From the IMG/VR virus record IMGVR_UViG_3300027704_000014, positions 1-64,000 of that record: DNA of 64,000 nt; one strand, 5' to 3'. The DNA comes from a virus. Numbering within the stretch: the first letter of the stretch is position 1; every line of letters starts with the position of its first letter. Positions 45,786 to 64,000 of this stretch are shown one piece after another. The translations under genes and the position numbers were made by a program. The notes beneath the pieces were generated by a model. That model worked only from the letters and a program-made list of their open reading frames with translations. It was not told the origin of the DNA and did no database searches.

Positions 45786-45793
45786 TATTTATT
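45786..45793 (-). promoter_or_regulatory. Possible late promoter AATAAATA
   Basis: On the minus strand AATAAATAC lies 20 bases before the 54-aa gene, overlapping the end of the upstream gene. Same core as the other late-type motifs. Confidence 0.35.
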
Positions 45794-47139: not shown

Positions 47140-47745
47140 TTGAGCTTTAAAACTGTAAGAGAATTCGAAACAGCAATAGCACAGTTTTATGATGCCCCAT
47201 ATGCTGTGGCAGTAGATTGCTGCACTCATGCGGTCGAACTTTGCTTACGTTATACTAAGCCAGAAGTCAACATAGGCATACCAACTAATACATATATTAG
47301 CATTCCGTTTACATGTCAAAAACTAGGGCTAAAGTGGCACTGGGTTGAGAACGAATGGGAAGAGTATTATCACATAGATGGCACTGATATAATAGATGCA
47401 GCAGTATATCTTAAACGTGATGGTTATATTCCACTAAGTTTTATGTGTTTAAGTTTTCAATTTAAAAAGCCATTGAGCTTAGGCCGTGGCGGTGCTATAC
47501 TGTGTTATAACGAAAGTGACTACATAGCATTAAAGAAGATGGCATACGATGGACGAGTAGACGATATCGCATGGGCCGAACAAGCAATAGACACAATAGG
47601 TTATCATTATTACATGACACCTGAAACTGCACAAATGGGGTTGGACAAACTGCCAGAGGTTGCAAATAAAGAATGGCGCAAGTGGAGTTACAAGGACTAT
47701 CCGTTTTTACCGGATGTACCTGTATTCAACACCGGCCATCATTAA
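47140..47745 (+). CDS. Very short DegT/DnrJ/EryC1-like aminotransferase, 201 aa
   Basis: TTG start behind AAAGGA. Recognisable DegT pieces: YDAPYAVAVDCCTHAVELCLR (cofactor-binding start), VNIGIPTNTYISIPFTCQKLG, TDIIDAA (Asp), SFQFKKPLSLGRGGAIL with the likely Schiff-base Lys, and an IGYHYYMTPETAQMGLDKLP end. Normal family members are about 370 aa, so the C-terminal domain is cut short. In sugar pathways DegT enzymes aminate keto-sugars or keto-cyclitols. It lies alone on + with the SGNH gene, inside the minus-strand island. Confidence 0.75.
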   Translation: MSFKTVREFETAIAQFYDAPYAVAVDCCTHAVELCLRYTKPEVNIGIPTNTYISIPFTCQKLGLKWHWVENEWEEYYHIDGTDIIDAAVYLKRDGYIPLSFMCLSFQFKKPLSLGRGGAILCYNESDYIALKKMAYDGRVDDIAWAEQAIDTIGYHYYMTPETAQMGLDKLPEVANKEWRKWSYKDYPFLPDVPVFNTGHH

Positions 47746-47757
47746 AAAGAGACATAT

Positions 47758-48705
47758 ATGAGAAGAATTTTTACGTTCGGGTGTAGCATGACCGAATACC
47801 AATGGCCTACGTGGGCTGATATGTTATGCTACCATTATAATCAAGAGGAAGGTGCTGAAACATACAATTATGCTAATTGTGGCATGGGCAACGAACATGT
47901 TGTGCAAGCATTAACAGCAGCTGATCTAAAGCATACATTCACAGATGACGATATTATATGTGTACTGTGGAGTAGTTGGCTAAGAGAAGATCGACTTTGG
48001 CAAGATAAACGTTGGGGCAAAAATGGAAGTATTCTTAACACTCCAACTACTCAGCCATTTGGTGAGTTTGCTAATAATTATTTTAGTTTAGAAAACTATA
48101 TAATGAAAAATATTACTAATATACATACTGCTAATAAAGCATTCAAGATTACTTATCAGGATCACATCTTCCAATGTGAGGAACCATTAATGTCTGAGGA
48201 GGCTGATAAGTTGTTGCACAGTTTTTACTTTGATATGCCAGGTGGTGCTGCGTTTACTAAAGAAGACGTAGCAGAGTATATTAAAGGTAACGGTGGTGTA
48301 GACGGGCAGTCAATAATCAGAGAGGTAGATGGCCATCCTAGTCCAGCTGAACATTTATTATACTTAGAGAATAAAGTATTACCTGCACTAGGCATCTCAC
48401 AATTAAATACTAAAGCAGCAGAATGGGTAGATATTTGGGACAAACGAATAACACTTGCGAATAAGCAGATAATAGCAGCGTCGGGTCATCCAGTGGATGA
48501 TGCTGTATTTAATGCAAGAGGAACATGGTCAGAGATGATAACAAATGAAACTAGCACTTGGATGGATAGATGGGAAGACTTGTGGGACACGCAATTTTTA
48601 CATAGCGTTGGGTCTGAAGAAGGTGTTTACAAAATGTTACAACTCTACCAGGATAAGTATGGAAACGGCCAAAAGTCTAACTTTGATTACCATCCAAATG
48701 AATAA
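47758..48705 (+). CDS. SGNH-hydrolase-like protein, paralogue A
   Basis: 315 aa. Begins RIFTFGCSMTEYQWPTWADML; the Ser10 context (GCSxT) fits block I of SGNH esterases, and VDGHPSPAEHLLYLE fits block V (DxxH), so the Ser and Asp/His of the triad are present. Nearly the same opening is used by the minus-strand protein at 56872 (FGCSFTNYYWPTWAD). Such proteins hydrolyse or transfer acyl groups on glycans. It ends convergently, overlapping the next minus gene by 29 bases. Confidence 0.65.
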   Translation: MRRIFTFGCSMTEYQWPTWADMLCYHYNQEEGAETYNYANCGMGNEHVVQALTAADLKHTFTDDDIICVLWSSWLREDRLWQDKRWGKNGSILNTPTTQPFGEFANNYFSLENYIMKNITNIHTANKAFKITYQDHIFQCEEPLMSEEADKLLHSFYFDMPGGAAFTKEDVAEYIKGNGGVDGQSIIREVDGHPSPAEHLLYLENKVLPALGISQLNTKAAEWVDIWDKRITLANKQIIAASGHPVDDAVFNARGTWSEMITNETSTWMDRWEDLWDTQFLHSVGSEEGVYKMLQLYQDKYGNGQKSNFDYHPNE

Positions 48706-49429
48706 ACTCAAATAACTTTTTTGCATGAAGTCTATGAGGCTCTTCGTTGTGGTGCCAGTACTTTGCTTTAGGATTTTCATATCCTGCATTTCTATAATGC
48801 CAAAAGAAGGCGGCATCATTGTCTAGCATATCCATATACTTACTTTGATCTACTAGGTCAATATAAAACTGTAAGTGTGTGTTTTCAGATGAGAACATTT
48901 CCATAGTATTAGTCATAACATAGTCAATGCCTTTACTGTTAAAGAAGTACTGCATTTGTAGCACTGTGTTAATACATTCTAACTCACACATAAACTCGTG
49001 CCTTGCCTGATACTCGTGCCAGTAAGGTATAACATCTTTTTCGTAATCGTTACCTCCAGCCCAGCCTGCATTAATTTGTAGGAAGTATTCGTTAATTTTA
49101 GTGTAATAGTCTGCGGCAGTATTAGCTGGAGCATAGCCTATCGCATGCGGGTTAGGTAAATCAATGCGTGTAGTTTCTGTCCAACCTATTAGTACTTTTA
49201 CGTCCATAGTGTCAGCATTGTATTCTTTATCAAACCAATTTAGTACACTTCGTGCAATAGCTCTATTACTCATTGCAACCATTGCTATGTTTATAGGCTT
49301 CCTGTCCAGCTTTACTGCTAGTATGCCACCAAAACTGTTTTTACGATTATACTCGCTGTCTTCACTGCCATCAATTTCACTTCCGCCAGTGTGGCTACAA
49401 CCTGCTATTAATAATATTCTTTTAATCAT
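48677..49429 (-). CDS. SGNH-hydrolase-like protein, paralogue B
   Basis: 250 aa. LLIAGCSHTGGSEID carries the block I Ser12 (GCSxT), MSNRAIARSVL a block with Asn/Arg, and the end KYWHHNEEPHRLHAKKLFEF provides His residues in the block V position. The last 29 bases overlap the 3' end of the opposite-strand gene. Last gene of the right minus-strand operon. Hydrolase activity is inferred from the motif; the family is less clear than for the other two copies. Confidence 0.55.
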   Translation of the reverse strand: MIKRILLIAGCSHTGGSEIDGSEDSEYNRKNSFGGILAVKLDRKPINIAMVAMSNRAIARSVLNWFDKEYNADTMDVKVLIGWTETTRIDLPNPHAIGYAPANTAADYYTKINEYFLQINAGWAGGNDYEKDVIPYWHEYQARHEFMCELECINTVLQMQYFFNSKGIDYVMTNTMEMFSSENTHLQFYIDLVDQSKYMDMLDNDAAFFWHYRNAGYENPKAKYWHHNEEPHRLHAKKLFEFIHLDGNQS

Positions 49430-50846
49430 TGTTAAATTCCGTATTTGCCCATTCTGACTGCCACTGCATGTGTATTAACGAGTTGTCTGATTCGGTTATA
49501 GTACCTGTTTGCGTATTATCTATTGCTTTTCTGAAATTATACTCTAGTGTATTTCTCATATCAGTATACATTACAAATAACTCGTCATATGATAAAGTTT
49601 CAATCCAATCAATAATTTCTACAATCTTTTTAAGTCTTAGTACATGATTTTCTTCTTCATCATAACTTTCGTCCCACCACTTGTTAAATGTTTTGTAACC
49701 TGCTTCTCTCATACTCTTTAATGTGTAAGGCGGTGCGAGCAGTATGAACGGAGTTTTATATACTACCGATTGTATTGCTTTTTCACTATAGTTGCCTGTT
49801 GGTTGTGCAAATCTACTCTCAACATGCACACTAACAAATGTTTCTCTATAATATTTTTCTAGTCTATGTTGTTTTTCGTTATATGCTACAGGATTCATAC
49901 CATCGTTAACTTGCTTGTCATCTAGATCCGCTGGGTAATTATGAGCAGCATGCTCGCGAATAAATGTCGAACCGGATGCTTTAAAATCTAATTCATATGG
50001 CGCAATTCTATTCATTTTTATTGTACTTGCCTGAAATCTTTCGTTAAAGCCTGGAAAGTATTTATTCATTTCTTCTTTATTTGCCCATGGTGATTGCTCA
50101 CATATATTTGGAGATACAGCAAAGTACCAGGATAAATGCGAATCACATTCTGCCATCACTGTAGATATTAAGTACCTAGCAGTTGTGTATCTCCACATAG
50201 GACAAACAAATTTCTTTGTAATTTTTACTTTAGGTTCTTGACTCATGCCATCGTATATCCGTAAGTCTCTTAAAAATAAATCGTCGTATATTAACGTCAT
50301 ATGATCTTTATATAACGGATAATACTTGTCAGCATCATAATCACAAGTTGCTACAGTAACATTAGTCAATGCATGTTTCCTTACAAAATTCCAAATACTG
50401 TCTAACTCTTTTGCTCTAAACTCTCTTGTGTTACCGTCGTTATAAAATTCACTATAAAAGCCAAAGTTAAAGTTATGGAATAGTGTATGAGCGTAACGAT
50501 CGTTTACCATATGCGAGCACAATGGCTCTGTTAGAAATATCTTGAGACCATGCTTGTTTAAGAATTTACGAGTTTCTAAAGATAATTCTGTAGCATCTAG
50601 TGAAATCATGGGACCATTAGAATAATATACTATAACTGCTGTCAATGGGTCATCTAAGGATAGTGTTCCTAGCCTACTGTAGTCGCTGAAGGTGGCCTTT
50701 AAAAATTCATTTGTCTCTACCTTAGGTATGTGATCTAGCTCACCAGGGAAATTATGCGTGTATAAACTTGACTCAGTTTGAATCATATCTGTGCCGTTTT
50801 GCTCATCGTCAGATATATGTACTGTTGTTTTTTTCTCTCTAGCCAT
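49422..50846 (-). CDS. Glycosyltransferase-like protein, paralogue 2
   Basis: 474 aa. C-terminal part VESRFAQPTGNYSEKAIQSVVYKTPFILLAPPYTLKSMREAGYKTFNKWWDESYD shows the same signature as the proteins at 55286 and 57672. The SEK-x7-8-K-x-PF element is like the sugar-nucleotide loop of FucT/exostosin-like transferases. The N-terminal half differs, which suggests a different acceptor. It overlaps the oxygenase gene by eight bases and the SGNH gene by eight. Confidence 0.6.
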   Translation of the reverse strand: MAREKKTTVHISDDEQNGTDMIQTESSLYTHNFPGELDHIPKVETNEFLKATFSDYSRLGTLSLDDPLTAVIVYYSNGPMISLDATELSLETRKFLNKHGLKIFLTEPLCSHMVNDRYAHTLFHNFNFGFYSEFYNDGNTREFRAKELDSIWNFVRKHALTNVTVATCDYDADKYYPLYKDHMTLIYDDLFLRDLRIYDGMSQEPKVKITKKFVCPMWRYTTARYLISTVMAECDSHLSWYFAVSPNICEQSPWANKEEMNKYFPGFNERFQASTIKMNRIAPYELDFKASGSTFIREHAAHNYPADLDDKQVNDGMNPVAYNEKQHRLEKYYRETFVSVHVESRFAQPTGNYSEKAIQSVVYKTPFILLAPPYTLKSMREAGYKTFNKWWDESYDEEENHVLRLKKIVEIIDWIETLSYDELFVMYTDMRNTLEYNFRKAIDNTQTGTITESDNSLIHMQWQSEWANTEFNND

Positions 50847-51345
50847 TAACTATTGTTCCTGTTATTTGTAATGCGTATCGATCTTTTGTTCCAATATTTG
50901 CACTTGCATGGTCTACGTCTGCATGCCATAGCACAAAGTCTCCTGCTTTCCAAGAAGTTAGTGCGTTATGGTCTACTTCTAAATATTGTCCTGGTGCCCA
51001 ATCTTCTAAAAATAATAATGCTCTGTATACATCACTTCTATTTACTTCGAATACTTTGCAGTATGTTTCAAAGTGATCTATATGGTTAGGCATTATGTCT
51101 AATGTTGTTAGTTTATAAAATACAAATCCTGCGTTTGTTAAACCCATTTGCTCTGCTACTGTATCTGTCCATGCTGGCATAGGATTGCGACTGTCGTACA
51201 TGCCGCCTGAGAAACTCTCATGGTAATAACCAAGTGAGCGCCAGTTCTCCATTTCTTCTTCTTTGAGTGGCTGCTTAGTATATTCGTAGTCTTTAAATGC
51301 GTCTTGCCAAACTACAGCTACTTTGCCGTATGTTACGTTATCCAT
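50839..51345 (-). CDS. Fe(II)/2OG-type oxygenase-like protein, 168 aa
   Basis: Small jelly-roll protein with a metal triad pattern: NHIDHFETY (HxD) and later LWHADVDHASANIGTKDRYALQIT (distal His and 2OG-type Arg). GQYLEVDHNALTSWKAGDFVLWHAD is a cupin/2OG core. It would hydroxylate a small molecule or a peptide. Lies between the cysteine hydrolase and a glycosyltransferase-like gene in an overlapping chain. Confidence 0.65.
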   Translation of the reverse strand: MDNVTYGKVAVVWQDAFKDYEYTKQPLKEEEMENWRSLGYYHESFSGGMYDSRNPMPAWTDTVAEQMGLTNAGFVFYKLTTLDIMPNHIDHFETYCKVFEVNRSDVYRALLFLEDWAPGQYLEVDHNALTSWKAGDFVLWHADVDHASANIGTKDRYALQITGTIVNG

Positions 51346-51922
51346 ATATGTTAAATTCCACTGGTATTATGTTATGGTATCCCCAGTAATATGTCTTTAG
51401 TGGGTCATGTGTTCCGTCATCTAGTTGTGCTGTTGTATGAGAATAATTGACTCCTTCGTTAGTTATACTAGGAAACGGTAGAGATAGATTTATAAGTACT
51501 CCTACGTTTAACGGATTACTCGATGGATTAAGATATGCAAAATCTTTTAAATCTTTGGCTGCTTTACTAATACATCTACCTAAATGTACACCACATAAAA
51601 ATATGTTATCGTATGTTGGGTATTCAGTATTAAATATATTAGTTACATTATTATGTAAAGATCGTATATGCTGTAACTCAGGTACTGTTTCGTTAACATC
51701 ATGCACGAAGTCAGCACCGAGATGTGGTTTAGTATGTGTTGGCGTATTTACATAAACATCAGTTCCGTGATTTACTGACTCCCACCGTGTAACTCGAGAA
51801 ATAAATTTAGATAATTCCTTTACATCGGTCAACATGTGAGCATGATATTCAGCATCTGCTGGCATTAAAGAATGCCACATATCAATTATAACAATTGCTG
51901 ATTTGCCGGATGGTCTATTCAC
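51338..51922 (-). CDS. Isochorismatase-like cysteine hydrolase
   Basis: 194 aa, GTG start overlapping the amidinotransferase stop. AIVIIDMWHSL supplies the N-terminal Asp, and NIFLCGVHLGRCISKAAKDL matches the Gxxxx-C-V/I-x-x-TA block with the nucleophilic Cys. The central Lys of the triad is not certain. Family members cleave amides or vinyl ethers (nicotinamidase, N-carbamoyl amidohydrolase, isochorismatase). Next to an amidinotransferase, an amidase or ureido-hydrolase role is attractive. Confidence 0.65.
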   Translation of the reverse strand: MNRPSGKSAIVIIDMWHSLMPADAEYHAHMLTDVKELSKFISRVTRWESVNHGTDVYVNTPTHTKPHLGADFVHDVNETVPELQHIRSLHNNVTNIFNTEYPTYDNIFLCGVHLGRCISKAAKDLKDFAYLNPSSNPLNVGVLINLSLPFPSITNEGVNYSHTTAQLDDGTHDPLKTYYWGYHNIIPVEFNIYG

Positions 51923-52892
51923 GTTCTAGGTCCAATGTAACACAATGAAAGCCGCCGCCTAGTGTACGCTGGTGCCTAATAGGTAGCATTGCACTTTCTA
52001 TGCCATACTTTTCTAGCTCTTTTGCTAACGGTGTTTGATGTTCTTCTAATACTACTAAGTTAGGATTTACACTTAACAAATTCATATTAATCCACACACT
52101 AGCATTATTGTAATGACTATGGTAGCCAATGTCTACTGGCTCAGGACACATAATGTAGTCCCAACTTCTAAACGGTTCGGGCAATACATTTACATCTTTT
52201 ATTCTACTAGGGTTAAGTAGCATTAAACCCTCTCGTAGAAACGCTACAGTGCTGTCTATGTGCATGTAACTGTACACACCCTCTAATGTGTGTACTTTAG
52301 CAGTATCGCCTAGTAGATCCTGTAACAGCATTGCTCCTTGCTTATTACCACTATTGCTTACTAGATATAATATATCCTCGTTAGCACGAATAGTGTTAGC
52401 GGCATCGAACAATGGAGTTAGTTCGTTTAGTGCAAGTGTATCAGGATCACCACAACAATCTAAATTGTAATTGTAATCTCCTCTGTCAGCAGCTAATACA
52501 ACCATAGGCTCATCAAAAGCGTGATTAATATTTTTCCAATTAGTTGCTCTAGGGCGTATAGGGTTAGGTGTAGCCAATGCTAGTTTATTATGTACAAACC
52601 CAATATCTCTTGGGCAGTAATCGTAGTATTGTGTTTTCTCTACAGGCTGTGGGCGTATTACTTCTGCACCTTCACCTTCTAAAAATTTACTTAGAGTATC
52701 TAAGTCTTCGTTTGATTCGTCTATGACTTGCTGTGGATAGTCGCCACTAGTAATAGTGCTTTCGTCAGCAACATCTGCATAGTTTACTGTGCGTACACTT
52801 ATGTCTATGGGAGGTACAGTAGCACCAGTTGCAGTGCCTACTATTACTTTTTTTAGTGTGTCCCATTCATTGGTCGCGTATTTCTTAGTCAT
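51915..52892 (-). CDS. Amidinotransferase (GATM/StrB1-like)
   Basis: 325 aa from ATG 52892 (a GTG nine bases upstream is in frame). Catalytic elements: YCPRDIGFV (Asp), YSYMHIDSTVAFL (His) and the near-C-terminal RTLGGGFHCVTLD with nucleophile Cys317. This is the arginine:glycine / inosamine-phosphate amidinotransferase layout. It would move the amidino group of Arg to an amine, giving a guanidino product, for example on an amino-cyclitol or amino-sugar. An arginine-deiminase-like hydrolase is the alternative. Overlaps the B12 radical SAM gene by eight bases. Confidence 0.88.
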   Translation of the reverse strand: MTKKYATNEWDTLKKVIVGTATGATVPPIDISVRTVNYADVADESTITSGDYPQQVIDESNEDLDTLSKFLEGEGAEVIRPQPVEKTQYYDYCPRDIGFVHNKLALATPNPIRPRATNWKNINHAFDEPMVVLAADRGDYNYNLDCCGDPDTLALNELTPLFDAANTIRANEDILYLVSNSGNKQGAMLLQDLLGDTAKVHTLEGVYSYMHIDSTVAFLREGLMLLNPSRIKDVNVLPEPFRSWDYIMCPEPVDIGYHSHYNNASVWINMNLLSVNPNLVVLEEHQTPLAKELEKYGIESAMLPIRHQRTLGGGFHCVTLDLERE

Positions 52893-55242
52893 CCTCACCA
52901 CTACTAGTGCTAGTAAAGGGCATGTTAGCCATATCGCCTACAAGTTGTACAACCTGTGTTTGATTAGGGTTTAAGTCTTCTACTGATTGTGCATCAGTAG
53001 AGGCACGATATGCTGCCAAATCATTTAAGTGTTCGTTATCATCATTCACACCGGGTGAAATCTCAGCAGCAACTTCAACATCATGCGAACCACGATCCCA
53101 TTTACCTGTTCCGATATAGTTGTAGTCAAAGGTAAAGTCAATGTTATCATTAAGGAATTTTTCTTCTTCAAGCAAATCATTAAAGTCTATGTCTCCGCGA
53201 CCTGCTAATTTATCCCAATCTGGTTTTGCTAGTGCTCTTGCTCGCAGTGCAGGGTTACTTTGCATACGACTATAGTCTTGTGCAAAGAATGGGCCTTTTC
53301 TGCCTACTGGCGGTGCTTCTCTCATATCATATGGGTTGTCAATTTGCTTATAATCATATGTAAATTTAGCTGTCCAGCTGCCGGATGCACTAATTCTAAA
53401 TTTGTACACTGCTGTAAACATGCCTGGTCCAAACTGATTGCCAAACTCTTTTAAATCAATCTCTGGATTGAAATGTATTTGGGCTGTGTAACCACCTCTG
53501 GTTCTCCACAACATTCTCAAGAAAGGCCATATCTCATTTACTAAGTTATCAGCAAACGGTGAGATGTCTGGCTTAATGATCTTGTAATCAAAATTCTCAT
53601 ATTCTATTTCGTGCTGAGCACCCGGATCATCTAATGTTATTTCATAATGTTCTTTAACTAAGTTACGTCTAATTGGATAACCATACGGTACGTCAGTACA
53701 CCCTGCAATAAGATCTAAGTACATGTGGAAGAACTTAACACGATGCATAACGTGTGTTCCTGCAATAGTAAAGTCATTTGCAATCCAATGATTCATATAC
53801 TTGTGATACGAAACATTATACTTATGAGGATTCTGCCCTACAATAGTTTCTGGTCCTACAGCCATTCCAACACCGGCACCAACGTTGTTGATGTTCATGT
53901 TTCTGTTACGCCATAAGAACTGCATACTTTGTGCAAAGTCGTCGTGCTTCTCTGTTGGGAAGCCTACGATCCAGTTAGTGGCCGCCATTACGCCGTACTT
54001 CTTGCCCCACTTAAAGTTATCTTCCATTTCCTTAATTGTGACACCCTTAGCCATGTCGTCTAGTACACGTTGACTACCAGATTCGATACCGTAGTTAAAC
54101 ATAATGCAACCACCGTCGCCGGAGATGTCTCTGAAAAATTCTTCGTCCATTCTACCATCGCAACGAGCATAACCTGTCCAACGCATAGGAATTTTCTTTG
54201 CTCTTAGTGCAAGTGAAAACGCCCTTAGTTCATTGGGTACGCCATTTACAAGACTGTCAATGAACCACATGATGTCTGCACCTTTCTCATAGTACAAATA
54301 TTCTGCTTCTGTGATAACATCAACTGCCTGACGCTGTCTATATTTCCAAAAGTGTGTTTCTTCGCAGAACGTACACTTAGCTGTGCAACCACGTGAGAAC
54401 TCTGAGGTTACTCCGTTAGGTACTTTATATTCATTAAAGTCTAGGCCAGTGTAGTCTGGCATAGGCATACCGTTGATGTTTATACGTTCAGTATTAGATT
54501 GTTTTAGAACTTGTGGCTCATCATGTGTAATGCCCTCTTCGAGTTCTTTTAAAATTTGTAGTATAGCATGTTCGCCTTCGCCTGTTACAACATAGTCGTA
54601 TAAGCCTTTGCTGTCGAACCAATCCTTGTGTACGTTACTGCCGCCGACCATTTGTTTAATGTGAGGCGCACGTCTACGCAATTCTGCAGACATCCAGTTA
54701 GTAGGCTCTTCAGAGATGTAATACTGACTGAATCCTACAATAGTGGGGTTTGCTTCTATGATTTGATCAATGCCTTTTATAAGCAATGGTTCCAACAACG
54801 GATGGATATCTGTTAAGTAGGTATCGCCTAGCCAATGCCAACTAGCACTCGGATCCCACAACATAAAAGGTATTTTATTATTAGGTAGCCAGTCGTCTCT
54901 GAACAGATTATACGCTTTTACATTAAGATCGATAATAGTAGTTTCGTAGCCAGTGCTTTTTAATACACCACTTAGTCTTGCTAAGTTAAAAGGTGGAAAC
55001 TCTGGTGCCCACTCAGGACACATAACAAGCATTACAGATGACTCTCTGGTTTTATATTCTGTATATACAGTTGTCATCTTCTTCTGCTGGACTTTCTTTG
55101 CAAATGGAGCAATAACTTCCATCATGGTTTGATGTCTAGCATCTTCGATACTTAGATCTGGCTTAGCGTATGAGTTCACTTTTTCTGTTGCCAGATTATC
55201 TAAGTTGAAATCAATTACTGGCTTTTTTGAGTCGTCTGACAT
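52885..55242 (-). CDS. B12-binding-type radical SAM protein, 785 aa
   Basis: N-terminal Rossmann-like domain (about 65-240: VMLVMCPEWAPEFPPFNLARL, TTIIDLNVKAYNLF, IVGFSQYYISEEP, VVTGEGEHAIL) resembles B12-binding domains, though the DxHxxG His motif is absent, so cobalamin may bind base-off differently or not at all. Radical SAM core has RGCTAKCTFCEE (Cys286, Cys290, Cys293), FIDSLVNG and NYGIESGSQRVLDDMAKG. A long C-terminal part (about 530-785) is unassigned. Family members do methylations, ring contractions or C-C chemistry. Confidence 0.85.
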   Translation of the reverse strand: MSDDSKKPVIDFNLDNLATEKVNSYAKPDLSIEDARHQTMMEVIAPFAKKVQQKKMTTVYTEYKTRESSVMLVMCPEWAPEFPPFNLARLSGVLKSTGYETTIIDLNVKAYNLFRDDWLPNNKIPFMLWDPSASWHWLGDTYLTDIHPLLEPLLIKGIDQIIEANPTIVGFSQYYISEEPTNWMSAELRRRAPHIKQMVGGSNVHKDWFDSKGLYDYVVTGEGEHAILQILKELEEGITHDEPQVLKQSNTERININGMPMPDYTGLDFNEYKVPNGVTSEFSRGCTAKCTFCEETHFWKYRQRQAVDVITEAEYLYYEKGADIMWFIDSLVNGVPNELRAFSLALRAKKIPMRWTGYARCDGRMDEEFFRDISGDGGCIMFNYGIESGSQRVLDDMAKGVTIKEMEDNFKWGKKYGVMAATNWIVGFPTEKHDDFAQSMQFLWRNRNMNINNVGAGVGMAVGPETIVGQNPHKYNVSYHKYMNHWIANDFTIAGTHVMHRVKFFHMYLDLIAGCTDVPYGYPIRRNLVKEHYEITLDDPGAQHEIEYENFDYKIIKPDISPFADNLVNEIWPFLRMLWRTRGGYTAQIHFNPEIDLKEFGNQFGPGMFTAVYKFRISASGSWTAKFTYDYKQIDNPYDMREAPPVGRKGPFFAQDYSRMQSNPALRARALAKPDWDKLAGRGDIDFNDLLEEEKFLNDNIDFTFDYNYIGTGKWDRGSHDVEVAAEISPGVNDDNEHLNDLAAYRASTDAQSVEDLNPNQTQVVQLVGDMANMPFTSTSSGEDD

Positions 55243-55285: not shown

Positions 55286-56875
55286 CTAGTATGCAGTATT
55301 GTTCATGAGCAACCGAGAGAAGTTCATTGGTGCTGCTATTAGCTCTTTATTTCTACTAAGTACATCAAAATTATGCTGTAGGGTAGGCACCATTTCTTCT
55401 ATCATTTGTTGCCACTCGTCATGTGATAAGTTTATTAAACGTTTAGCTTCTTCCATTACCATATCCATTCGTTTATCACAGTCCGGTTCTAAATCGTAAC
55501 TCTCATCTATCCATCTGCTGAACGTTTTATACCCGAACTTGCGTAGGTTTTCTAATGTTCTATCTACCCCTACTACTACAAACGGATGCTTCATACATAA
55601 TGGTTTATATATTTTTTCACTTAAAAATACACTGTTTGTTGGCTGAATATCTACAAGATGGTTGTACTTGTATGTGTCTTTATAAAATAATGTTTCGTTT
55701 ACAATACTAAAATACGAAGTATCAAAATGTGATATATCGTCACTTTGCAAGTCTGCTGGATTCCAGCGTTCTTCTGTTTTGTTTAAGTTATAATCTAATT
55801 CAGGCACAACGTTTTCAAAGAAATAATGCATAGTATCTTCCCAGTGCCCTATGTCGCCCGGTAAACGAATACCTTTCCATCTATCAAGGTGGCCATCTGT
55901 ATTATAAAAACTAACGTGTCCTTGCTCTATTAAGCCTGCACTGTGTAATTCTGTTATAACTTTTACACGATGTAATCTAGGCATACGGTTATAACATAAG
56001 TATTTCTTTTCACGTTTGCCTGTGTATACTTCTCTGTTTATTTCAGAATAATGACCTACTAGTCCTTGTTCAAACATCATGCCTTTTGCTACTGCTTCAA
56101 ACCTTGCACAAGGTACTATAGCTAATTCTTCTTCAAACCCGTGTTGTTTACACCAGTTACTATATATTTGTTGACCGTTTAGTGCTCCGGTGAGAAACAA
56201 AAATCTATTATCAAAGCCTGGTATGTGCTTTCTTACACGTCTAATAATACTATGACATGTATACAACCTTGTCCAATACATTGCTTCGTCTTTGTCATCG
56301 AAGGCAAAGTACTCTATACCGTTATATATTTTTTTCTTAATAAAATCTACTAAATCTAATACCGCTAATTGGTCAATAGCATGTTCACGTATAGGTCCTG
56401 CATATATTGGAAATAGTCTGCCTGACTCAAAGTATGGTAGCAGTGGAGAAAAACTAGATCGAAGTACTACGTCATAATTGCCTGAATTTCTACTGTTTGA
56501 TTCGCCTAAATCTGATATGCTCAATTCATTATTTACACGTTGAATAAAATCTGAGCCGTTCCATACCCACTTATCGTTCGAAGTTAGATGTTGCATATCT
56601 GCCTGATTGTATGCAGTAGTTTCTTCATCATCTATTATAAGCAGTGTTTTATTGTAATAATTTTGAAAGTACTCTCGATTCAAACCAACTACTATGGATA
56701 CATCATATCTAGCAAAGTCTTCCTTTTCGCCGATGCCTGTATGTACTAATGACTGTATTCCTATGCTCTTTAGTTCTTGTACTAAGTCATCCATCTCTAA
56801 GGCTATACAGTCTGTGATGATTTCAATTTGATCACCAAACTTTTTTGCTTGTTGTGCAATTAAATGTGTATTCAT
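55286..56875 (-). CDS. Glycosyltransferase-like protein, paralogue 3
   Basis: 529 aa. N-terminal part DIEIITDCIALEMDDLVQELKSIG, middle KKYLCYNRMPRLHRVKVITELHSAGL (a conserved N-R-R/P-R-x-HR element shared with the 57672 copy), C-terminal VNETLFYKDTYKYNH...FLSEKIYKPLCMKHPFVVVG...NLRKFGYKTFSRWIDESYD. The FLSEKI-x-KP-x3-HPF signature resembles a GT-B nucleotide-sugar site. ATGA overlap with the SGNH gene at 56872, its likely partner. Confidence 0.62.
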   Translation of the reverse strand: MNTHLIAQQAKKFGDQIEIITDCIALEMDDLVQELKSIGIQSLVHTGIGEKEDFARYDVSIVVGLNREYFQNYYNKTLLIIDDEETTAYNQADMQHLTSNDKWVWNGSDFIQRVNNELSISDLGESNSRNSGNYDVVLRSSFSPLLPYFESGRLFPIYAGPIREHAIDQLAVLDLVDFIKKKIYNGIEYFAFDDKDEAMYWTRLYTCHSIIRRVRKHIPGFDNRFLFLTGALNGQQIYSNWCKQHGFEEELAIVPCARFEAVAKGMMFEQGLVGHYSEINREVYTGKREKKYLCYNRMPRLHRVKVITELHSAGLIEQGHVSFYNTDGHLDRWKGIRLPGDIGHWEDTMHYFFENVVPELDYNLNKTEERWNPADLQSDDISHFDTSYFSIVNETLFYKDTYKYNHLVDIQPTNSVFLSEKIYKPLCMKHPFVVVGVDRTLENLRKFGYKTFSRWIDESYDLEPDCDKRMDMVMEEAKRLINLSHDEWQQMIEEMVPTLQHNFDVLSRNKELIAAPMNFSRLLMNNTAY

Positions 56876-57675
56876 GTAAGATCAAACCACGCATGTAATA
56901 GTTGTTCTGGTCGTTCTTCTATTGCTTCAGTATGGGTATCACACGAGCTTGCCCATTCTCCTGTTTCACTAGATAAGTTAAAACCTATTTTGTTTAAGTA
57001 GTCGTAATATGTTTTTGTTTTAGGATGATAATCTACGCTAGGATTTCCTTCGTGGTCGTTGAATGCAAATGTTTCTGCCCACGATCCTCCGCAACCTCTA
57101 TTTAGAAGATCCGGAAGTATCTGGTTCCTAAGATCATTGTAAAATATATTTAAATCAGTATAGTCATTTGATAGATCCGGAGTCTGGCTTAACCCATAGT
57201 AATCTTGCATATCAGGATCTACTCCCCACATCGAAATACTATCAAACGATTGCGACTCGAGCATTTTCATTGCTGTGTCTACAATAGCATAGTCCCTTAC
57301 AGCAAACCCTTTAGTATCAGATAGATACTTGTTTACAATCTCTAACGGAATATCACTCTGCGAATATATGTTGCCGGGTGTTTTCCAGTCATTATCTTTA
57401 AAACTGTCTTGTCTATAGAACGTTGTCCACATAATAGTAACTAAGTCATCTTCGCCAATGTTATAGTATCGCATTGCTTGACTTAACTTAGAAAGTATGT
57501 AAGTGTTTCCTGCTCCAGGTTTACCAGTGTTTACATAGCCTGCATCTGGCATTTCGTGTGTAATTACGTCAGCCCATGTAGGCCAATAGTAGTTAGTAAA
57601 ACTGCAACCAAATGCAAAATGTCTTTTATATTTTTTTAGATCTAAATCTTTAATGTTTTGTGTATTGTATATCAT
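56872..57675 (-). CDS. SGNH-hydrolase-like protein, paralogue C
   Basis: 267 aa. HFAFGCSFTNYYWPTWADVI (Ser25) and EGNPSVDYHPKTKTYYDYL (Asp/His block V) match the plus-strand protein at 47758. GAGNTYILSKL gives a block II/III Gly/Asn region. Overlaps both neighbouring glycosyltransferase-like genes by four bases, giving the fixed order GT-SGNH-GT, which suggests a joint acceptor. Possible acyl esterase or transferase. Confidence 0.65.
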   Translation of the reverse strand: MIYNTQNIKDLDLKKYKRHFAFGCSFTNYYWPTWADVITHEMPDAGYVNTGKPGAGNTYILSKLSQAMRYYNIGEDDLVTIMWTTFYRQDSFKDNDWKTPGNIYSQSDIPLEIVNKYLSDTKGFAVRDYAIVDTAMKMLESQSFDSISMWGVDPDMQDYYGLSQTPDLSNDYTDLNIFYNDLRNQILPDLLNRGCGGSWAETFAFNDHEGNPSVDYHPKTKTYYDYLNKIGFNLSSETGEWASSCDTHTEAIEERPEQLLHAWFDLT

Positions 57676-59000
57676 GTGTGTTTATATATGAACTCTTTTT
57701 TATGTGTTAGTACAGTAAAGTTATGCTCTGCAATTTCTCTACAAAATTTCAAGTAATCTTCTAATGCTTCGCCTTCTAATTTGCATAGTCTGTCTACTTC
57801 CTTGAGTATAGCAATAAGCCTAAGCCAGTTATCTTCAATGCTATCATAACTCTCGTCTATTACTGGTGAATATGTTTTATACCCTAGCCCTCGTAAATAC
57901 TTTAATGTATGCGGTGTTGCACATAGTACAAAAGGATGTCTAAATAAAATTGCTTTAAATATCTTTTCACTGAGGAAACAACTATCTTCCCAATCTCTAT
58001 ATTCTGTAAAGAATATAGTTTCACTTACTAAACTAAAGTAAGTATCTTCGTACAGTTTATCTATGTGATCAGATGTTTCTAGTTGTGCTTGGTTTATGCT
58101 TAGATCAGGCTTGTCTAATGTTAGTTCACCTATATTAGAAATCCTTTCTCTGTTAGCAACTAGCACACGGTGTATGCCTTCATGAAAAAGAAATGACTCT
58201 TGTATTATGTAGTCTAATTCCGTTGTCCATGTTCTATTGTCATCTGATTTTGCTAAACTAACATGCCCTAACTTTAATAAGTCTGAACTTTCTAATAGTG
58301 CTGTCATTAAAGGTCTATGCAAACGCCACCGCCTATTAAAGTTTAAAAACTTCTTAGGATACTCTTTACTTTGTAATACATTAGGCATCTTGGCTTTGCC
58401 ATTTGCTACCTGGGTTGCTAGACCTGCGTCTCCATTAATCGGCACCAGGTGGCCGCCCCCTGCTGGAACCTCATGTGAGTGGCTGTCTGATGGAAGAGTC
58501 ATAGTATGTATTCCATATTTGTCTGCTATCATTCCGAACCAGTCAGATTGTACAGCAAATTCAAATTCTAACATACTGTGATATTGAAAAGGCCTTCTAC
58601 CGTATAGTTTTACATATTCATCAAATTTTTGTTGCAAATCTAATGCACCTGAGAACAGTATTAATTTCTGTGGTGGTATTTCATATCTGTCAATAACCCA
58701 TTCGTATATTTCACCAATAAGATTACTAAAGCCTTCGTGGAAGTTTTCAAGTATTATATAACATTCATCATTAGGATCTTTAATCCTAGACATTAAATCA
58801 GGTCCAACGTCTTTTGATATGTTGGCGAGATTAAGACTTACTACTGATTTAAATTCTATTAAATAGTAATCAATAGGATCGGCATCCCAATCTTTAATTC
58901 TAGTAACCATAGATACTGCACGGTGCTCTCTAATGAATATTTCGTTTCGACTGCCCTGTGTATCGTAGTACCAGTATCCGTCTGAATTAAGAAGCGGCAT
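57672..59000 (-). CDS. Glycosyltransferase-like protein, paralogue 4
   Basis: 442 aa from ATG 59000; an upstream TTG at 59051 is in frame but overlaps the radical SAM gene by 65 bases. KKFLNFNRRWRLHRPLMTALLES and the C-terminal LVSETIFFTEYRD...CFLSEKIFKAILFRHPFVLCA...LRGLGYKTYSPVIDESYD match the 55286 copy closely. The same GT-B-like signature argues for a sugar transferase. Conserved HR-rich middle may bind the acceptor or phosphate. Confidence 0.62.
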   Translation of the reverse strand: MPLLNSDGYWYYDTQGSRNEIFIREHRAVSMVTRIKDWDADPIDYYLIEFKSVVSLNLANISKDVGPDLMSRIKDPNDECYIILENFHEGFSNLIGEIYEWVIDRYEIPPQKLILFSGALDLQQKFDEYVKLYGRRPFQYHSMLEFEFAVQSDWFGMIADKYGIHTMTLPSDSHSHEVPAGGGHLVPINGDAGLATQVANGKAKMPNVLQSKEYPKKFLNFNRRWRLHRPLMTALLESSDLLKLGHVSLAKSDDNRTWTTELDYIIQESFLFHEGIHRVLVANRERISNIGELTLDKPDLSINQAQLETSDHIDKLYEDTYFSLVSETIFFTEYRDWEDSCFLSEKIFKAILFRHPFVLCATPHTLKYLRGLGYKTYSPVIDESYDSIEDNWLRLIAILKEVDRLCKLEGEALEDYLKFCREIAEHNFTVLTHKKEFIYKHT

Positions 59001-60081
59001 CTGACTTGTTGCCCCAATCAGCGTCTGTCTTATCAAATCCTTCACCAGCAATAGTTGCTTCTACATCAATTGCTTCTGCGGCTTCTCTGTTTTCTATAGT
59101 CTTTTCATCCAGTTCTGAAAGTTCTCTTTTAGGAATAATAATATCTGTACCACAATGACAATGCATCTTGTCACATATAACAGTTCTAGGTTCTACATAA
59201 CGAATGTCTTTCATTATGTGTCCTACTTCGCCACTTACACCACAACTTGCTAATGTAATTTGTCCTGTTGGACTAATAAAGATACTGTCTCCTATACGGC
59301 ATTCCCAACCTGTAAAAAAGTTTTGTCTGCGTACAATAACATCATTACTGTTACAAGGCTCAGTTGATCCGTCTGCATACAAGTTAAAACTTTGTGCTTT
59401 ACTTTCTTTATATGGCTTAGGAATTGTAAACTCCATTTCGCAACTGTGTGATTCAATAAACTTTGTTTTATCATCGTCGTCATACTTCCATGGACCTGCG
59501 TTAACAGTCATTTCGTCATATAGTGGTGTCCATTCAATGAAGTAGTTAGGCATTGCTTTTTTAAGCTCTTCGCCATATTCTACGACTTCCCAAAATCTTT
59601 CATCATGTAATAACAGTTTAGTAGCAAGGTAGTTTACTTTGTCACATAGGAACATATTCTTTTCTTTATAACTAGCCTTGTCAGCAAACTCTACGTGAAA
59701 ACTTGCAACAATGTCATCAAACAAATGTACATGTTTCTGCCACCATGCTAGTGGTCTACTTAGGTTTGTGTTTACAGCAATAGTTGCGTCTGGCAACTTA
59801 GCTCTTAGATATTCTACAATCGGAATAAAGTGTTTCCATGCAGTTGGCTCTCCGCCACTAAAGAAAAACTTATAATGCTTGTAGCCATCTTTCTTGTAAT
59901 TTGCAATTATTGTATCTAAATTGTCTAGGTAAATTTGTAAGTCGCCCTCATTACGAAAGTCTCCTAACCAGTTACCAGGATTACAATAACTGCAACTATA
60001 GTTACAGAAGTTGTTTACCTGCCAGGTAATACTGAGATATTTCTCAGGTGCTTCAACCGCAATTAATTTTGTTCTATCCAT
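58987..60081 (-). CDS. Radical SAM enzyme with C-terminal auxiliary cysteines
   Basis: 364 aa. Core motif NNFCNYSCSYCNP (Cys26, Cys30, Cys33), then FFFSGGEPTAW and VNTNLSR. The C-terminal half has a run of cysteines (GWECRIGD, LASCGVSGEVG, VICDKMHCHCGTD) that fits a SPASM/twitch-type auxiliary cluster. A disordered acidic tail (after about 330) follows. SPASM enzymes often act on peptides or sugars. Fifth radical SAM protein of the right operon. Confidence 0.88.
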   Translation of the reverse strand: MDRTKLIAVEAPEKYLSITWQVNNFCNYSCSYCNPGNWLGDFRNEGDLQIYLDNLDTIIANYKKDGYKHYKFFFSGGEPTAWKHFIPIVEYLRAKLPDATIAVNTNLSRPLAWWQKHVHLFDDIVASFHVEFADKASYKEKNMFLCDKVNYLATKLLLHDERFWEVVEYGEELKKAMPNYFIEWTPLYDEMTVNAGPWKYDDDDKTKFIESHSCEMEFTIPKPYKESKAQSFNLYADGSTEPCNSNDVIVRRQNFFTGWECRIGDSIFISPTGQITLASCGVSGEVGHIMKDIRYVEPRTVICDKMHCHCGTDIIIPKRELSELDEKTIENREAAEAIDVEATIAGEGFDKTDADWGNKSDAAS

Positions 60082-61391
60082 TGTCTAACCTCTAATAATC
60101 TGGGTGAGATCTCTGCAAGTTCTTCACCACGCATTTTGTCCATTACATCGTTTTCTTTAAAAAATTCTTCTAGCTTATCCCTGTTCTCTTCGCCATTACG
60201 CAACGTCATCATAATCATTTTAAATGTATCATTCATGTTGCTGTCTTCTGGTTTAGGAAATTTCTCATAGTACAGTCTAAACTCTCGCATCAGATCAAGT
60301 CTAAACTTCTCAGGTAATATAGATATGTTTGCCCAATCTGGAGCAGTAAGCATATTTAGCCTTGGGGGATTAGTTATTGACGTAAATCCGTTCTCAAACA
60401 TCCAGTCAAACATTTCACTGTAATGCCAAATGTTCCATAGGCTAATTGTAGGTGTTAATCCTAATCTAATCTGTGGCGCACGTTCTCTAATAGCAAACAT
60501 ATTTTTCTTAATACGTTCCCATTTAAATCCTTTACGAATTATGTCGCCTGCTTCTCCAACTGCATCAATACTTGCCCACATTTCAATATCTGGGAAATGT
60601 TGCCATAGCTCAAACAAGTCTCGCTCGCCTTTAACTTTATCTTGGTATTTGATTTTACTCATGTTAGTAGTATAGTTTAGCCTAATGTCTTTGGCCATGC
60701 CGTTCTCAATCCAATAATCTAAGCATTCATAATGCTCAGGGTGGACTAGAATCTCGCCGCCTGCAAAGTAAACTTCTTGTACATCATTTAAGTGTGGCTT
60801 TAGTGCCTCCATGAACGAGCCGTCTGCATTTACACTCAGTAGTGTTTCTCTGCCTTTACGGTTAATCCATGTAGTCTCATCTACTAGTTTTAATTTTTCG
60901 TCGCCCCATAAGTTAGAGCATCCAGGCCCACAACTACGACATTTAAAATTACAAAGATTACTAAATCGTATATCCATGTATTTCATTTTAAAGTCTTCAA
61001 TACCACCATCTTCTTGCGTATCAAGTAGCATTGTAATATTTTCTCTAGTGTTCTCGGGCTTTTTGGTTGTAAATTGTTGTGTGTTTTGACTAATACGCAA
61101 ACTCCATGTGCCTACTTTCTCTAGGTCATAGCATCGTTGGCAACGAGCGTCCGGCTCATCTGCTAACATCTTCTTACGCATTACTTTGTATTCGTCACTG
61201 TTCATTACATCAATAATAGTATCACCAGCTTTGTATTCAGCAACTGGTTCAGCACTATCAGCAATACAGCAAGGCATAATTCTATCATCAGGCCAAGCAT
61301 GCATGTGAATCCACGGTAATACACAAAAGTGCTTACTGTCTTCTACAGCCTTAATTAAATTAGGCTCTTCAGCTATGTTATAGTCTGACAT
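60063..61391 (-). CDS. Radical SAM protein with N-terminal SPASM-like domain, paralogue 1
   Basis: 442 aa. N-terminal auxiliary motif FCVLPWIHMH...RIMPCC...ARCQRCYDLE (Cys23, Cys41, Cys42, Cys84, Cys87) reads like a SPASM/twitch domain placed in front. The radical SAM core follows: FSNLCNFKCRSCGPG (Cys147, Cys151, Cys154), YFAGGEILVHPEHY and NYTTNMSK, then VEMWASIDAVGE-like strand. Overlaps the 364-aa gene by 19 bases and ends a chain of at least four paralogues. Substrate unknown. Confidence 0.9.
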   Translation of the reverse strand: MSDYNIAEEPNLIKAVEDSKHFCVLPWIHMHAWPDDRIMPCCIADSAEPVAEYKAGDTIIDVMNSDEYKVMRKKMLADEPDARCQRCYDLEKVGTWSLRISQNTQQFTTKKPENTRENITMLLDTQEDGGIEDFKMKYMDIRFSNLCNFKCRSCGPGCSNLWGDEKLKLVDETTWINRKGRETLLSVNADGSFMEALKPHLNDVQEVYFAGGEILVHPEHYECLDYWIENGMAKDIRLNYTTNMSKIKYQDKVKGERDLFELWQHFPDIEMWASIDAVGEAGDIIRKGFKWERIKKNMFAIRERAPQIRLGLTPTISLWNIWHYSEMFDWMFENGFTSITNPPRLNMLTAPDWANISILPEKFRLDLMREFRLYYEKFPKPEDSNMNDTFKMIMMTLRNGEENRDKLEEFFKENDVMDKMRGEELAEISPRLLEVRQWIEQN

Positions 61392-62642
61392 TTACTCCAT
61401 ATCCTGTAATGGTTTTAGTTCTGGGAAGGCATCAAAGAAGTTCTCTCCCCTAAGTTTATTTAACCGATAAGTCATATGAAAGAAGTCTTTCTTGACTTCT
61501 TCCCATGTATCTTTTTGAGCAGCAAAGCCAGTGCCGCTTTTTATTAGTCCGTCTATTGCTCTTTCGCCTTGATACATACCCATAAGTTTTGCTTTTGCAG
61601 TCTCTTTCATACTTTTTGGCAATGCCTGAGCACAATAATGCTTAGGATTTGCCGCCAAGTACAAACTGTTATAAAAGTCTTTATCATAATCTAATAGTCC
61701 TGCTCCACTCATATATTCAAAGAACTCGTATAATGTATAATAGTTCATTATACTTAATACAGTATTCATTTGGAAACTAATATGTTCTGTGGCTCTGAAC
61801 TTTTTAAGGTTTGTCTCTACTCTGCCCCAATCAGTACCGTGTCGCATACATTCTGCTCTTTCGCCAAAGTGATCTATACTGCAACTCACTTCCACCTTAT
61901 CGAAGTGTTTCCACAGTGCAAAAATATCTTTGTCTTTGTACGACACTGTACTGGCATTAGTGTTATATCGCAACACTGTGTCTGTTTTGCCTTTACGGAT
62001 TAACTCCTCTAGTATAATATAATGTTCCGGAGTAATTAACGGTTCTCCTCCAGCAAAGTATGCAATATCAATATGATCAACCTGATCTAATATCTCTTCT
62101 AATACTCCGCCTTCTTCATTATCAACATGGATAATAACCGGACCGTCTGGCTTCCAAGACTTTTTATCCTCTAGTGCCCACTGGCTACTAAATTCACTAC
62201 CACAACTACGACACTTGAAATTACAGATGTTGCTAAAACGGATATCAAAATATCGCATCTTCATTTCATCTACATGCCCATCTTCGTGTGTCATTTCTAA
62301 ACTTTCATCAAAGTACTTACCGAAGTGCTCTATGCTGTACTTTCTGAAACTGTGTGGGCCTGCTTCTTCATGCGAATAACAAAAATCACATATCTTGTGA
62401 TGTTTCTCATTCAACATATCCATACGCAAGTTCTTCATGAACTCGCCATTGAATGCTTCTTTAAGAGATACGTCTGCTGTATTAGCTATAGGCATTGTGT
62501 AGTCGTTGCTACAGCACGGAAATATGTTACCCAAGGGTGTTGCATTCAAATGCGTCCATGGATACATACAAAAGGTTTTAGACTCGTTTAACAAGTAATC
62601 TTTGTCTAACTCTTTGAGTTTTAAATACTCTGACGTACTCAT
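61392..62642 (-). CDS. Radical SAM protein with N-terminal SPASM-like domain, paralogue 2
   Basis: 416 aa. FCMYPWTHLN...NIFPCC...KICDFCYSHE (Cys25, Cys43, Cys44, Cys85, Cys88), then the core RFSNICNFKCRSCGSE (Cys140, Cys144, Cys147), YFAGGEPLITPEHY and RYNTNAST, EVSCSIDHFGERAE. Same order as its neighbours, adjacent to paralogue 1 with no gap. It ends FFDAFPELKPLQDME, which resembles the ends of the other copies. Confidence 0.9.
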   Translation of the reverse strand: MSTSEYLKLKELDKDYLLNESKTFCMYPWTHLNATPLGNIFPCCSNDYTMPIANTADVSLKEAFNGEFMKNLRMDMLNEKHHKICDFCYSHEEAGPHSFRKYSIEHFGKYFDESLEMTHEDGHVDEMKMRYFDIRFSNICNFKCRSCGSEFSSQWALEDKKSWKPDGPVIIHVDNEEGGVLEEILDQVDHIDIAYFAGGEPLITPEHYIILEELIRKGKTDTVLRYNTNASTVSYKDKDIFALWKHFDKVEVSCSIDHFGERAECMRHGTDWGRVETNLKKFRATEHISFQMNTVLSIMNYYTLYEFFEYMSGAGLLDYDKDFYNSLYLAANPKHYCAQALPKSMKETAKAKLMGMYQGERAIDGLIKSGTGFAAQKDTWEEVKKDFFHMTYRLNKLRGENFFDAFPELKPLQDME

Positions 62643-63955
62643 TCTATCAGTAACCTTGCTAATTTTGGGAACACTTTTTTAAAGTCTTCGCCTCTACGAG
62701 CATCTATTTTTCTAACTTCATTCCTAAACACGTCTTGTAGTTGGTCCCACTTATCAGCACTTCTTGCTAATTCATGCATTGATTCTATTGCTGACATCAG
62801 CCGTGTTACCTGTCCATACATAATTTTGGCACGACCGGGTCGACCGTCCCCTTCATAAAGATCATCTGGTGCTAAGGCTTTTAACTTTTCAAAGTATTTT
62901 AAATGTTCCGCTGCAATAGACTCTTTGAGATCTGTTGGCATGCACTGAAATGAGAATTCTTCTGGACTGTATATAGGATTAATTTGCCAAGCACCGCCAT
63001 TAGGTTCAATCCACGGTGGTATATTTTGATCTATTAAGTAATCAAAGAAACTTGTGAGTGACCCATAGTTGAAAATGCTAACAGACGTTGTAATACTTAA
63101 CTCTACTATTGGTGATCCTAGCAATGTTCTATAGTTTTTCATTACTTCGTCCCACTTAGTACCTGCTCGTATATATTCTGCTTGGTCGCCAAAGTGATCT
63201 AAACTACCGTACACCTGTACTCTATTATCAAACTTACTCCATAAGTTAAGTAAATCTTTATCTTTAAACTTTAACTTACTGAGGTTTGTATTGTAACTAA
63301 GTAATATATCTGTGCGTCCTACACGAATCATTTCTTCTAACAATTCGTAATGATCTTCTGTTATAAGAGGTTCGCCACCTGCAAAGTATGCTCGTTGTAA
63401 GTTAGGTATTTGTGCATATAAATCTTGTTGTATTTTAGAAACATCTACAGTATTTGTAGGAATATTATAATGTTGCCCGTCTTTAGCATCTTCTATTTCC
63501 CATTGGCTACTATACCCGCTACCACAAGTCCGACACTTCATATTACATAAGTTACTAAAACGTATGTCTAAGTAACGCATTTTAAAATCGTTTAGTGTAC
63601 CATCCTCATTTGTATCATCGAATGCAGATGGCAAGAAATGACCGTATTCACGCAAAGTTGTTTTTCTAAAACTTTCCATACTTTGTTCTTGCTTGTAACA
63701 AGTGTTACATGCATTAGGTTTTATACCGTTAAGCATATCTAGCCGCATTTTATTCATTGCCGGGCTGTTCATCCAATCGTCTATGCCGTCTTCCTGCTTA
63801 CCAACAATATCTAGTGTATTTTCTGTATTAGTAATACAGCAAGGCATAATATTATGATCAGGTGTTAAGTGTATATGCATCCAAGGTAAGGCGCATAGCG
63901 ATTCTTTTTTTGCCTTTTCTATATCTATGTTTGTTAAATCAATTTTCTTCTTCAT
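62639..63955 (-). CDS. Radical SAM protein with N-terminal SPASM-like domain, paralogue 3
   Basis: 438 aa. LCALPWMHIH...NIMPCC...NACNTCYKQE (Cys21, Cys39, Cys40, Cys83, Cys86), core RFSNLCNMKCRTCGSG (Cys137, Cys141, Cys144), YFAGGEPLITEDHY, SYNTNLSKL and VYGSLDHFGDQAE. Four-base overlap with paralogue 2; overlaps the next gene upstream by 17 bases. Closest by eye to paralogue 2 (shared DHFG and AGGEPLIT). Confidence 0.9.
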   Translation of the reverse strand: MKKKIDLTNIDIEKAKKESLCALPWMHIHLTPDHNIMPCCITNTENTLDIVGKQEDGIDDWMNSPAMNKMRLDMLNGIKPNACNTCYKQEQSMESFRKTTLREYGHFLPSAFDDTNEDGTLNDFKMRYLDIRFSNLCNMKCRTCGSGYSSQWEIEDAKDGQHYNIPTNTVDVSKIQQDLYAQIPNLQRAYFAGGEPLITEDHYELLEEMIRVGRTDILLSYNTNLSKLKFKDKDLLNLWSKFDNRVQVYGSLDHFGDQAEYIRAGTKWDEVMKNYRTLLGSPIVELSITTSVSIFNYGSLTSFFDYLIDQNIPPWIEPNGGAWQINPIYSPEEFSFQCMPTDLKESIAAEHLKYFEKLKALAPDDLYEGDGRPGRAKIMYGQVTRLMSAIESMHELARSADKWDQLQDVFRNEVRKIDARRGEDFKKVFPKLARLLIE

Positions 63956-64000
63956 GGGTACTCTTACATAAGTTCCAGAAATCTTCCATCTCTGGGAATG
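63939..64000 (-). CDS. C-terminal end of a fourth radical SAM paralogue (partial)
   Basis: A minus-strand reading frame enters from the right edge and ends at 63939 with FPEMEDFWNLCKSTHEEEN. The start FPEMEDF matches the family ending FPELKPL / FPKLARL of the adjacent copies. It overlaps the next gene by 17 bases. Only about 20 residues are visible, so the call rests on the C-terminal match and on gene order. Confidence 0.55.
   Translation of the reverse strand, partial: FPEMEDFWNLCKSTHEEEN

Follow-up and report, generated by a model that had tools for sequence, protein, structure and literature searches.

We examined an array of radical S-adenosylmethionine (SAM) genes at the end of a 64,000-nucleotide stretch of viral DNA (the window; bases 1-64000 of the 84,915-base IMG/VR record IMGVR_UViG_3300027704_000014). 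Four consecutive genes, rA to rD, encode enzymes in which a putative SPASM/twitch domain precedes the radical SAM core (N-twitch enzymes), and a fifth radical SAM gene, rE, follows them. The array is a real viral operon, strongly conserved and drawn from an already known enzyme family; what is new about it is the order of its genes, their paralogy and their setting. That setting, which is one of sugar and glycan genes, is well supported.

On the minus strand, from position 65345 of the record down to 51915, the genes run rA, rB, rC, rD, rE, GT1, SGNH-like, GT2, B12-type and amidinotransferase (Table 1; GT denotes glycosyltransferase). The junctions from rE to rA are overlaps of 19, 0 (abutting), 4 and 17 bases, and the B12-type radical SAM gene is separated from rE by three genes. 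A preliminary description of the window had reported three complete paralogues and one entering from the edge, in a group of six radical SAM genes. rB, rC and rD are indeed present as complete genes on the minus strand, and the six genes lie within 12.5 kb (52885-65345), 11.1 kb of which is in the window. The edge gene, rA, is an N-twitch enzyme in the full record, but the front motif ascribed to it lies outside the window (which holds only the last ~20 codons) and is diverged (C-x3-KW ... SCY ... CxxC). The cysteine motifs given for the complete copies are those we find, with C25, C43, C85 and C88 in front and C140, C144 and C147 in the core (rC numbering). All seven cysteines are kept throughout 502 sequences (156 rA, 17 rB, 229 rC and 100 rD), and the CxxxCxxC and GGE motifs are invariant across all copies. 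The Pfam Radical_SAM cut-off is passed by rA, rB, rC, rE and the B12-type protein, and rD falls 0.4-2.6 bits short of it. The tail of rE carries cysteines C261, C280, C303, C308 and C310; among 99 viral orthologues C261, C303 and C308 are invariant and C280 and C310 are found in 95.

At the sequence level the front domain belongs with the SPASM/twitch domains, as had been proposed from the cysteine pattern. rB, rC and rD match nearly the whole of the NCBIfam profile NF033640 (N_Twi_rSAM) with 353-361 bits (E from 1e-105 to 1e-107; curated cut-off 170 bits). Orthologues of rA in other viral records exceed the same cut-off and rA itself was placed by alignment with the family, whereas rE falls outside it (38 bits vs the cut-off of 170, with the match limited to the core). 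A Pfam SPASM match covers residues ~21-88, N-terminal to the radical SAM core; it is above the Pfam cut-off in rB and rC and below it in rD, and was obtained at E ≤ 0.01 in 42 of 43 relatives. When the family profile was searched against the Protein Data Bank (PDB) sequences, the only match to the front domain, and the best overall, was the twitch at the C-terminus of BtrN (E = 2.4e-4), in which the pattern C-x12-G-x4-C ... C-x2-C is in register, so that the four cysteine positions correspond. A mediocre AlphaFold model of rC built from 12 sequences (predicted local distance difference test score, pLDDT, 76, very low at residues 137-177) retrieved only the radical SAM fold in Foldseek and is too coarse to reveal the geometry of a cluster, so that the assignment of the front domain draws on sequence profiles.

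SPASM/twitch domains have been described as C-terminal extensions, and the twitch carries a single cluster, to which BtrN contributes four cysteines and MoaA three (PMC9012708). The four invariant front cysteines thus point to a putative auxiliary cluster of the BtrN kind, and from this likeness we infer that the cluster would accept electrons rather than bind substrate. Likeness to BtrN, the butirosin 2-deoxy-scyllo-inosamine dehydrogenase, extends to the four-cysteine twitch pattern, but there the twitch follows the core and here it precedes it, and overall similarity is weak. The order twitch before core is no discovery, being already catalogued as NF033640, to which the viral enzymes match over their full length; that entry, however, names the architecture only, and here two to eight paralogues are found in an ordered viral operon.

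To see how widely the cassette is conserved, we scanned IMG/VR with two queries, the family profile and rE. The best 80 loci from each scan and the two first relatives gave 143 distinct contigs once duplicates were removed, so that counts over this set are lower bounds and biased towards relatives. At least three N-twitch genes were present in 124 of the 143 viral contigs; single copies without their neighbours, the pattern that the preliminary description had set against its own reading, were thus not what we saw. The number of N-twitch genes per locus was 1 in 2 loci, 2 in 17, 3 in 38, 4 in 53, 5 in 21, 6 in 9, 7 in 2 and 8 in 1. The recurring order is rA, zero to three variable copies, rC, rD and rE, the commonest runs being rA-rC-rC-rD-rE (33) and rA-rC-rD-rE (25), and intergenic gaps are zero or negative in 342 of 417 cases. 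Because the identical order recurs in other contigs, the array is far beyond chance. Relatives of rE are encoded in 329 viral stretches.

In two close contigs (L009 and L010) the gene order is intact over the whole stretch that begins with the sugar dehydrogenase and ends with the amidinotransferase. Identity to them is 71% and 62% for rB but 93-95% and 81-86% for rA, rC and rD, with the rA orthologue in L009 at 95%. Among the three close contigs rB, GT1, GT2 and the first SGNH-like protein share 47-71% and rA, rC, rD, rE and the B12-type protein 79-95%, which we read as a constant core with variable decoration. The slot between rA and rC, occupied here by rB, is changeable, ranging from absent to threefold.

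A FastTree tree of 118 proteins, in which bacterial branches are long and deep joins unsure, placed positions A and D each in one group, and the position labels A, M, C and D together with the bacterial rows required 6 changes, against a mean of 70 when labels were shuffled. The copies had been taken for separate paralogues in the preliminary description, and this grouping bears that out. Grouping by position indicates that they are old and position-specific paralogues that split before these viruses diverged, as expected if the copies do different steps. Recent tandem duplication was considered and is ruled out by the same tree, uncertain though its deep joins are.

Among 50,697 phage records searched by tblastn, rE and GT8b (one of the GT genes upstream of rA, see below) had no match, and rA and rB had weak matches only, to Vibrio jumbo phages at ~23% identity and to one marine single-cell fragment. 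The record probably derives from a large T4-like myovirus, of which it would be a fragment: its DNA polymerase has its nearest relatives in large T4-like phages, among them Sinorhizobium phage Phosso (46.5%) and Agrobacterium phage Atu_ph07. Several radical SAM genes have been reported from marine T4-like genomes: the environmental genome TARA_ERS488813_N000010 has 12 (PMC5332604), and the host-recognition regions of pelagimyophages, rich in GT genes, differ by radical SAM cassettes (PMC7029224). In the available parts of these two open-licence sources, however, the domain order, the paralogue positions and the conserved operon are not described.

Table 1. Genes of the cassette and its neighbours, with positions in the record (the window ends at 64000).
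Feature	Position	Strand	Basis
rA, N-twitch radical SAM, 468 aa	63939-65345 (63939..64000 in window, 3' end)	-	L007:1940-3346; aligned with front and core cysteines
rB, N-twitch radical SAM, 438 aa; fast-changing, expandable slot (posM)	62639..63955	-	NF033640 E 2e-105
rC, N-twitch radical SAM, 416 aa	61392..62642	-	NF033640 E 1e-107; Pfam SPASM 25-88, E 4.6e-8; Radical_SAM 135-285
rD, N-twitch radical SAM, 442 aa	60063..61391	-	NF033640 E 2e-106; posD single group, support 100
rE, radical SAM with Cys-rich (twitch-like) C-terminal tail, 364 aa	58987..60081	-	Pfam Radical_SAM E 4e-9
GT1, probable GT-B-fold glycosyltransferase	57672..59051	-	AlphaFold pLDDT 87; Foldseek
SGNH-like protein (GCSFT motif), function from motif only	56872..57675	-	75 loci; invariant G-C-S-F and D-x-H-P
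GT2, GT1 paralogue	55286..56875	-	BLAST and alignment to GT1
B12-binding radical SAM, probable methylase	52885..55242	-	Pfam B12-binding and Radical_SAM
Amidinotransferase, StrB1-like	51915..52901	-	Profile: StrB1 (1bwd) E 3e-100, human AGAT 2e-65, SxtG 4e-63
Isochorismatase/cysteine-hydrolase-like protein (by eye, weak)	51338..51922	-	No family match
2-Oxoglutarate-oxygenase-like protein (by eye, weak)	50839..51345	-	13 loci; no family match
GT3, GT1-type protein	49422..50846	-	BLAST of GT1/GT2 orthologues
Second SGNH-like protein (by motif)	48677..49429	-	38 loci
Short DegT/StrS-type aminotransferase reading frame, 201 aa, partial domain	47140..47745	+	Pfam DegT_DnrJ_EryC1 E 3e-14
GT4, GT1-like (shared motifs)	45789..47081	-	49 loci; no Pfam match
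Carbamoyltransferase (NodU/TobZ type)	43926..45437	-	Pfam Carbam_trans_N and _C; phrog_1601 E 8e-101
1203-aa protein with GT8b-like domain	40312..43923	-	BLAST of GT8b orthologue E 3e-18; 43 loci

The surroundings of the array are mostly sugar and glycan genes beside tail-fibre-like genes. UDP/GDP-sugar dehydrogenases are among the cluster neighbours, and GT298, GTgly (glycogenin-like, E = 3e-5) and GT8b lie directly upstream of rA in ~90 contigs. Fibre-like genes stand before this trio, and these loci hold relatives of two fibre-like genes of the record (670 aa and 323 aa). The best Foldseek matches of GT1 are trehalose-6-phosphate synthases and, lower, VldE (E from 8e-5 to 2e-3, TM-score near 0.38 and up to 0.4); it has no Pfam family, the SGNH-like protein next to it has no Pfam or PDB relative, and searching the PDB with profiles of the GT1, GT8b and SGNH families gave nothing useful. 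The amidinotransferase matches StrB1, an inosamine-phosphate amidinotransferase and its best PDB match, over its whole length, with H214 and C320 invariant and D166 conserved in at least 90%, residues that we take to be the catalytic Asp-His-Cys triad; unlike the StrB1 setting, however, this one shows no inositol pathway genes. The best NCBIfam matches of the B12-type gene, all below cut-off, are to families of C-methyltransferases of ribosomally synthesised and post-translationally modified peptides (RiPPs) and of P-methyltransferases.

Two families of small proteins recur among these genes. One of ~115 aa (EFRLYYDE.G.V.CYT...) sits between GTgly and GT8b in 51 of 52 viral sequences (e.g. L128:3522-3878), and another of ~105-120 aa, perhaps a fibre assembly factor, lies directly before GT298 and beside the fibre-like genes (L007:12034-12393 and 86 viral loci). 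Neither family has a match in phage isolates.

The product had been called unknown in the preliminary description, whose overall interpretation, a multi-step radical pathway, is partly supported; with this setting the product can be narrowed. We tentatively favour a reading, itself somewhat short of probable, in which the array is the oxidising and rearranging centre of a pathway that is encoded by the phage and runs wholly in the cytoplasm. This pathway would make an unusual modified sugar or short glycan and attach it, most probably to tail-fibre or virion proteins of the phage itself. Nucleotide-sugar dehydrogenases, an epimerase and an aminotransferase would supply uronic and amino sugars, and the glycosyltransferases would assemble the chain. 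rA to rD would each cleave SAM and abstract a hydrogen from a sugar carbon, and the front [4Fe-4S] cluster (four cysteines, BtrN type) would accept an electron, so that one position after another is dehydrogenated or inverted. An additional radical step and a methyl group would come from rE and the B12-type enzyme, and the amidino- and carbamoyltransferases would complete the groups. BtrN, the only PDB match to the front domain, dehydrogenates an aminocyclitol, and four cysteines hold its auxiliary cluster (PMC9012708). In a simple hydropathy scan no transmembrane segment was found in any cluster gene between 38.7 and 68 kb, the cassette had no multi-pass protein, flippase, polymerase or ABC exporter, and reading frames with at least three such segments turned up in just 4 viral loci. 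The cluster thus does not encode a full export route, and this speaks for a cytoplasmic acceptor (e.g. a virion protein) or for completion by host machinery.

Several points weigh against this sugar pathway. We infer the sugar substrate, the order of the reactions and the acceptor; the BtrN match is weak (E = 2e-4), Pfam support for GT8b is marginal, the fold scores of GT1 are modest, and Pfam lends no support to either fibre-like gene (670 aa and 323 aa). A cluster so rich in GT genes could just as well feed the lipopolysaccharide machinery of the host. The same sugar chemistry might then serve the host surface polysaccharide (O-chain) and keep competing phages out, with activated sugars and transferases provided by the phage and lipid-linked assembly and export by the host. 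We regard this as rather unlikely, although PMC7029224 reads the GT genes of pelagimyophage host-recognition regions, which also hold radical SAM cassettes, as O-chain modification, and although bacterial rA homologues adjoin genes judged by sequence to encode ABC-2 type polysaccharide exporters (L187, L193, L197, L200, L204 and L217), because the virus cluster has none of the export components listed above. Hypermodification of phage DNA bases by the array is very improbable. GTP cyclohydrolase I (FolE) and a QueE-like gene in the same record could begin 7-deazaguanine synthesis, but they lie ~25-38 kb off, on the opposite strand and in the replication region, and the cassette, which adjoins fibre-like genes, has no recognised nucleotide-modifying partner.

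Alternatively, the array might modify a peptide or protein directly (RiPP-like or a fibre protein), with the glycosyltransferases separate or acting on the same protein. Peptides are the substrates of many SPASM enzymes, a point that tells for this alternative and against the sugar pathway, and the viral cassette adjoins fibre-like genes. The rA homologue is, moreover, linked in Bdellovibrionota to PqqD, a peptide chaperone: 12 genomes from near the top of the rA match list carry 0-3 PqqD genes each, and the distance from the rA homologue to a PqqD gene is at most 1 kb in 7 of them and at most 20 kb in 10 (0.27 expected), a figure that is descriptive since some of the linkages were seen before the test. 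A stand-alone S74 (tail-fibre chaperone) protein of 142-180 aa is also near rA homologues there, on the same contig in 9 of the 12 genomes. However, neither PqqD nor the stand-alone S74 protein was found in ten viral records, so the Bdellovibrionota link is not simply transferable, and an S74 motif scan of the viral loci gave none. That no RiPP precursor is visible, as was noted at the outset, agrees with our search of the cassette, where the recurrent small reading frames (86 loci before GT298 and 52 sequences between GTgly and GT8b) have no leader or core look. PqqE/PqqD maturation of RiPPs thus shares with the array a SPASM-family radical SAM enzyme and, in Bdellovibrionota, the PqqD neighbour of the rA homologue, but differs in that the viral records searched have no PqqD and no precursor was seen. 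We consider direct peptide or protein modification unlikely, even though the Bdellovibrionota setting keeps such a substrate in play.

N-twitch proteins are common in Bdellovibrionota, where the rA homologue was matched in 55 of 192 genomes. A three-gene unit of an rA-like radical SAM gene, PqqD and stand-alone S74 is found at L187:933-3142 (Halobacteriovorax) and in L192, L193 and L203. A 56-kb contig of a Bdellovibrionia metagenome-assembled genome (L184-L185) carries more than a dozen N-twitch genes in ~33 kb, together with an amidinotransferase-like gene and rE-like pieces. Self-cleavage of the S74 protein at SDxRxK might release a ~40-aa peptide with the end ...NDSIYLDVFAG, a possible counterpart of a RiPP precursor. 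Phage-like S74 fibres act in prey recognition by Bdellovibrio (PMC10769870). It is conceivable, though improbable, that N-twitch enzymes form an attachment-fibre modification system shared by large T4-like phages and predatory Bdellovibrionota, altering fibre proteins, an S74-released peptide or their sugars and so changing fibre binding.

If it operates as proposed, the cassette would encode a radical pathway of several steps that is sensitive to oxygen, has a fixed gene order in many uncultivated phages and was not seen among the isolates searched. Decoration of fibres or of host surfaces would bear on host recognition or on the exclusion of rivals, and the copies offer a natural paralogue set for asking what a twitch cluster does ahead of the core.

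Elsewhere in the record, the FolE and QueE-like genes are at 24062-24751 and 26855-27775, and a 520-aa protein at 17087-18649 is DpdA/tRNA-guanine transglycosylase-like by eye, with no Pfam match; 7-deazaguanine DNA modification by these three is possible. A second sugar pair, a group 1 glycosyltransferase and a GalE-like epimerase, lies on the plus strand of the replication region at 21194-23357.

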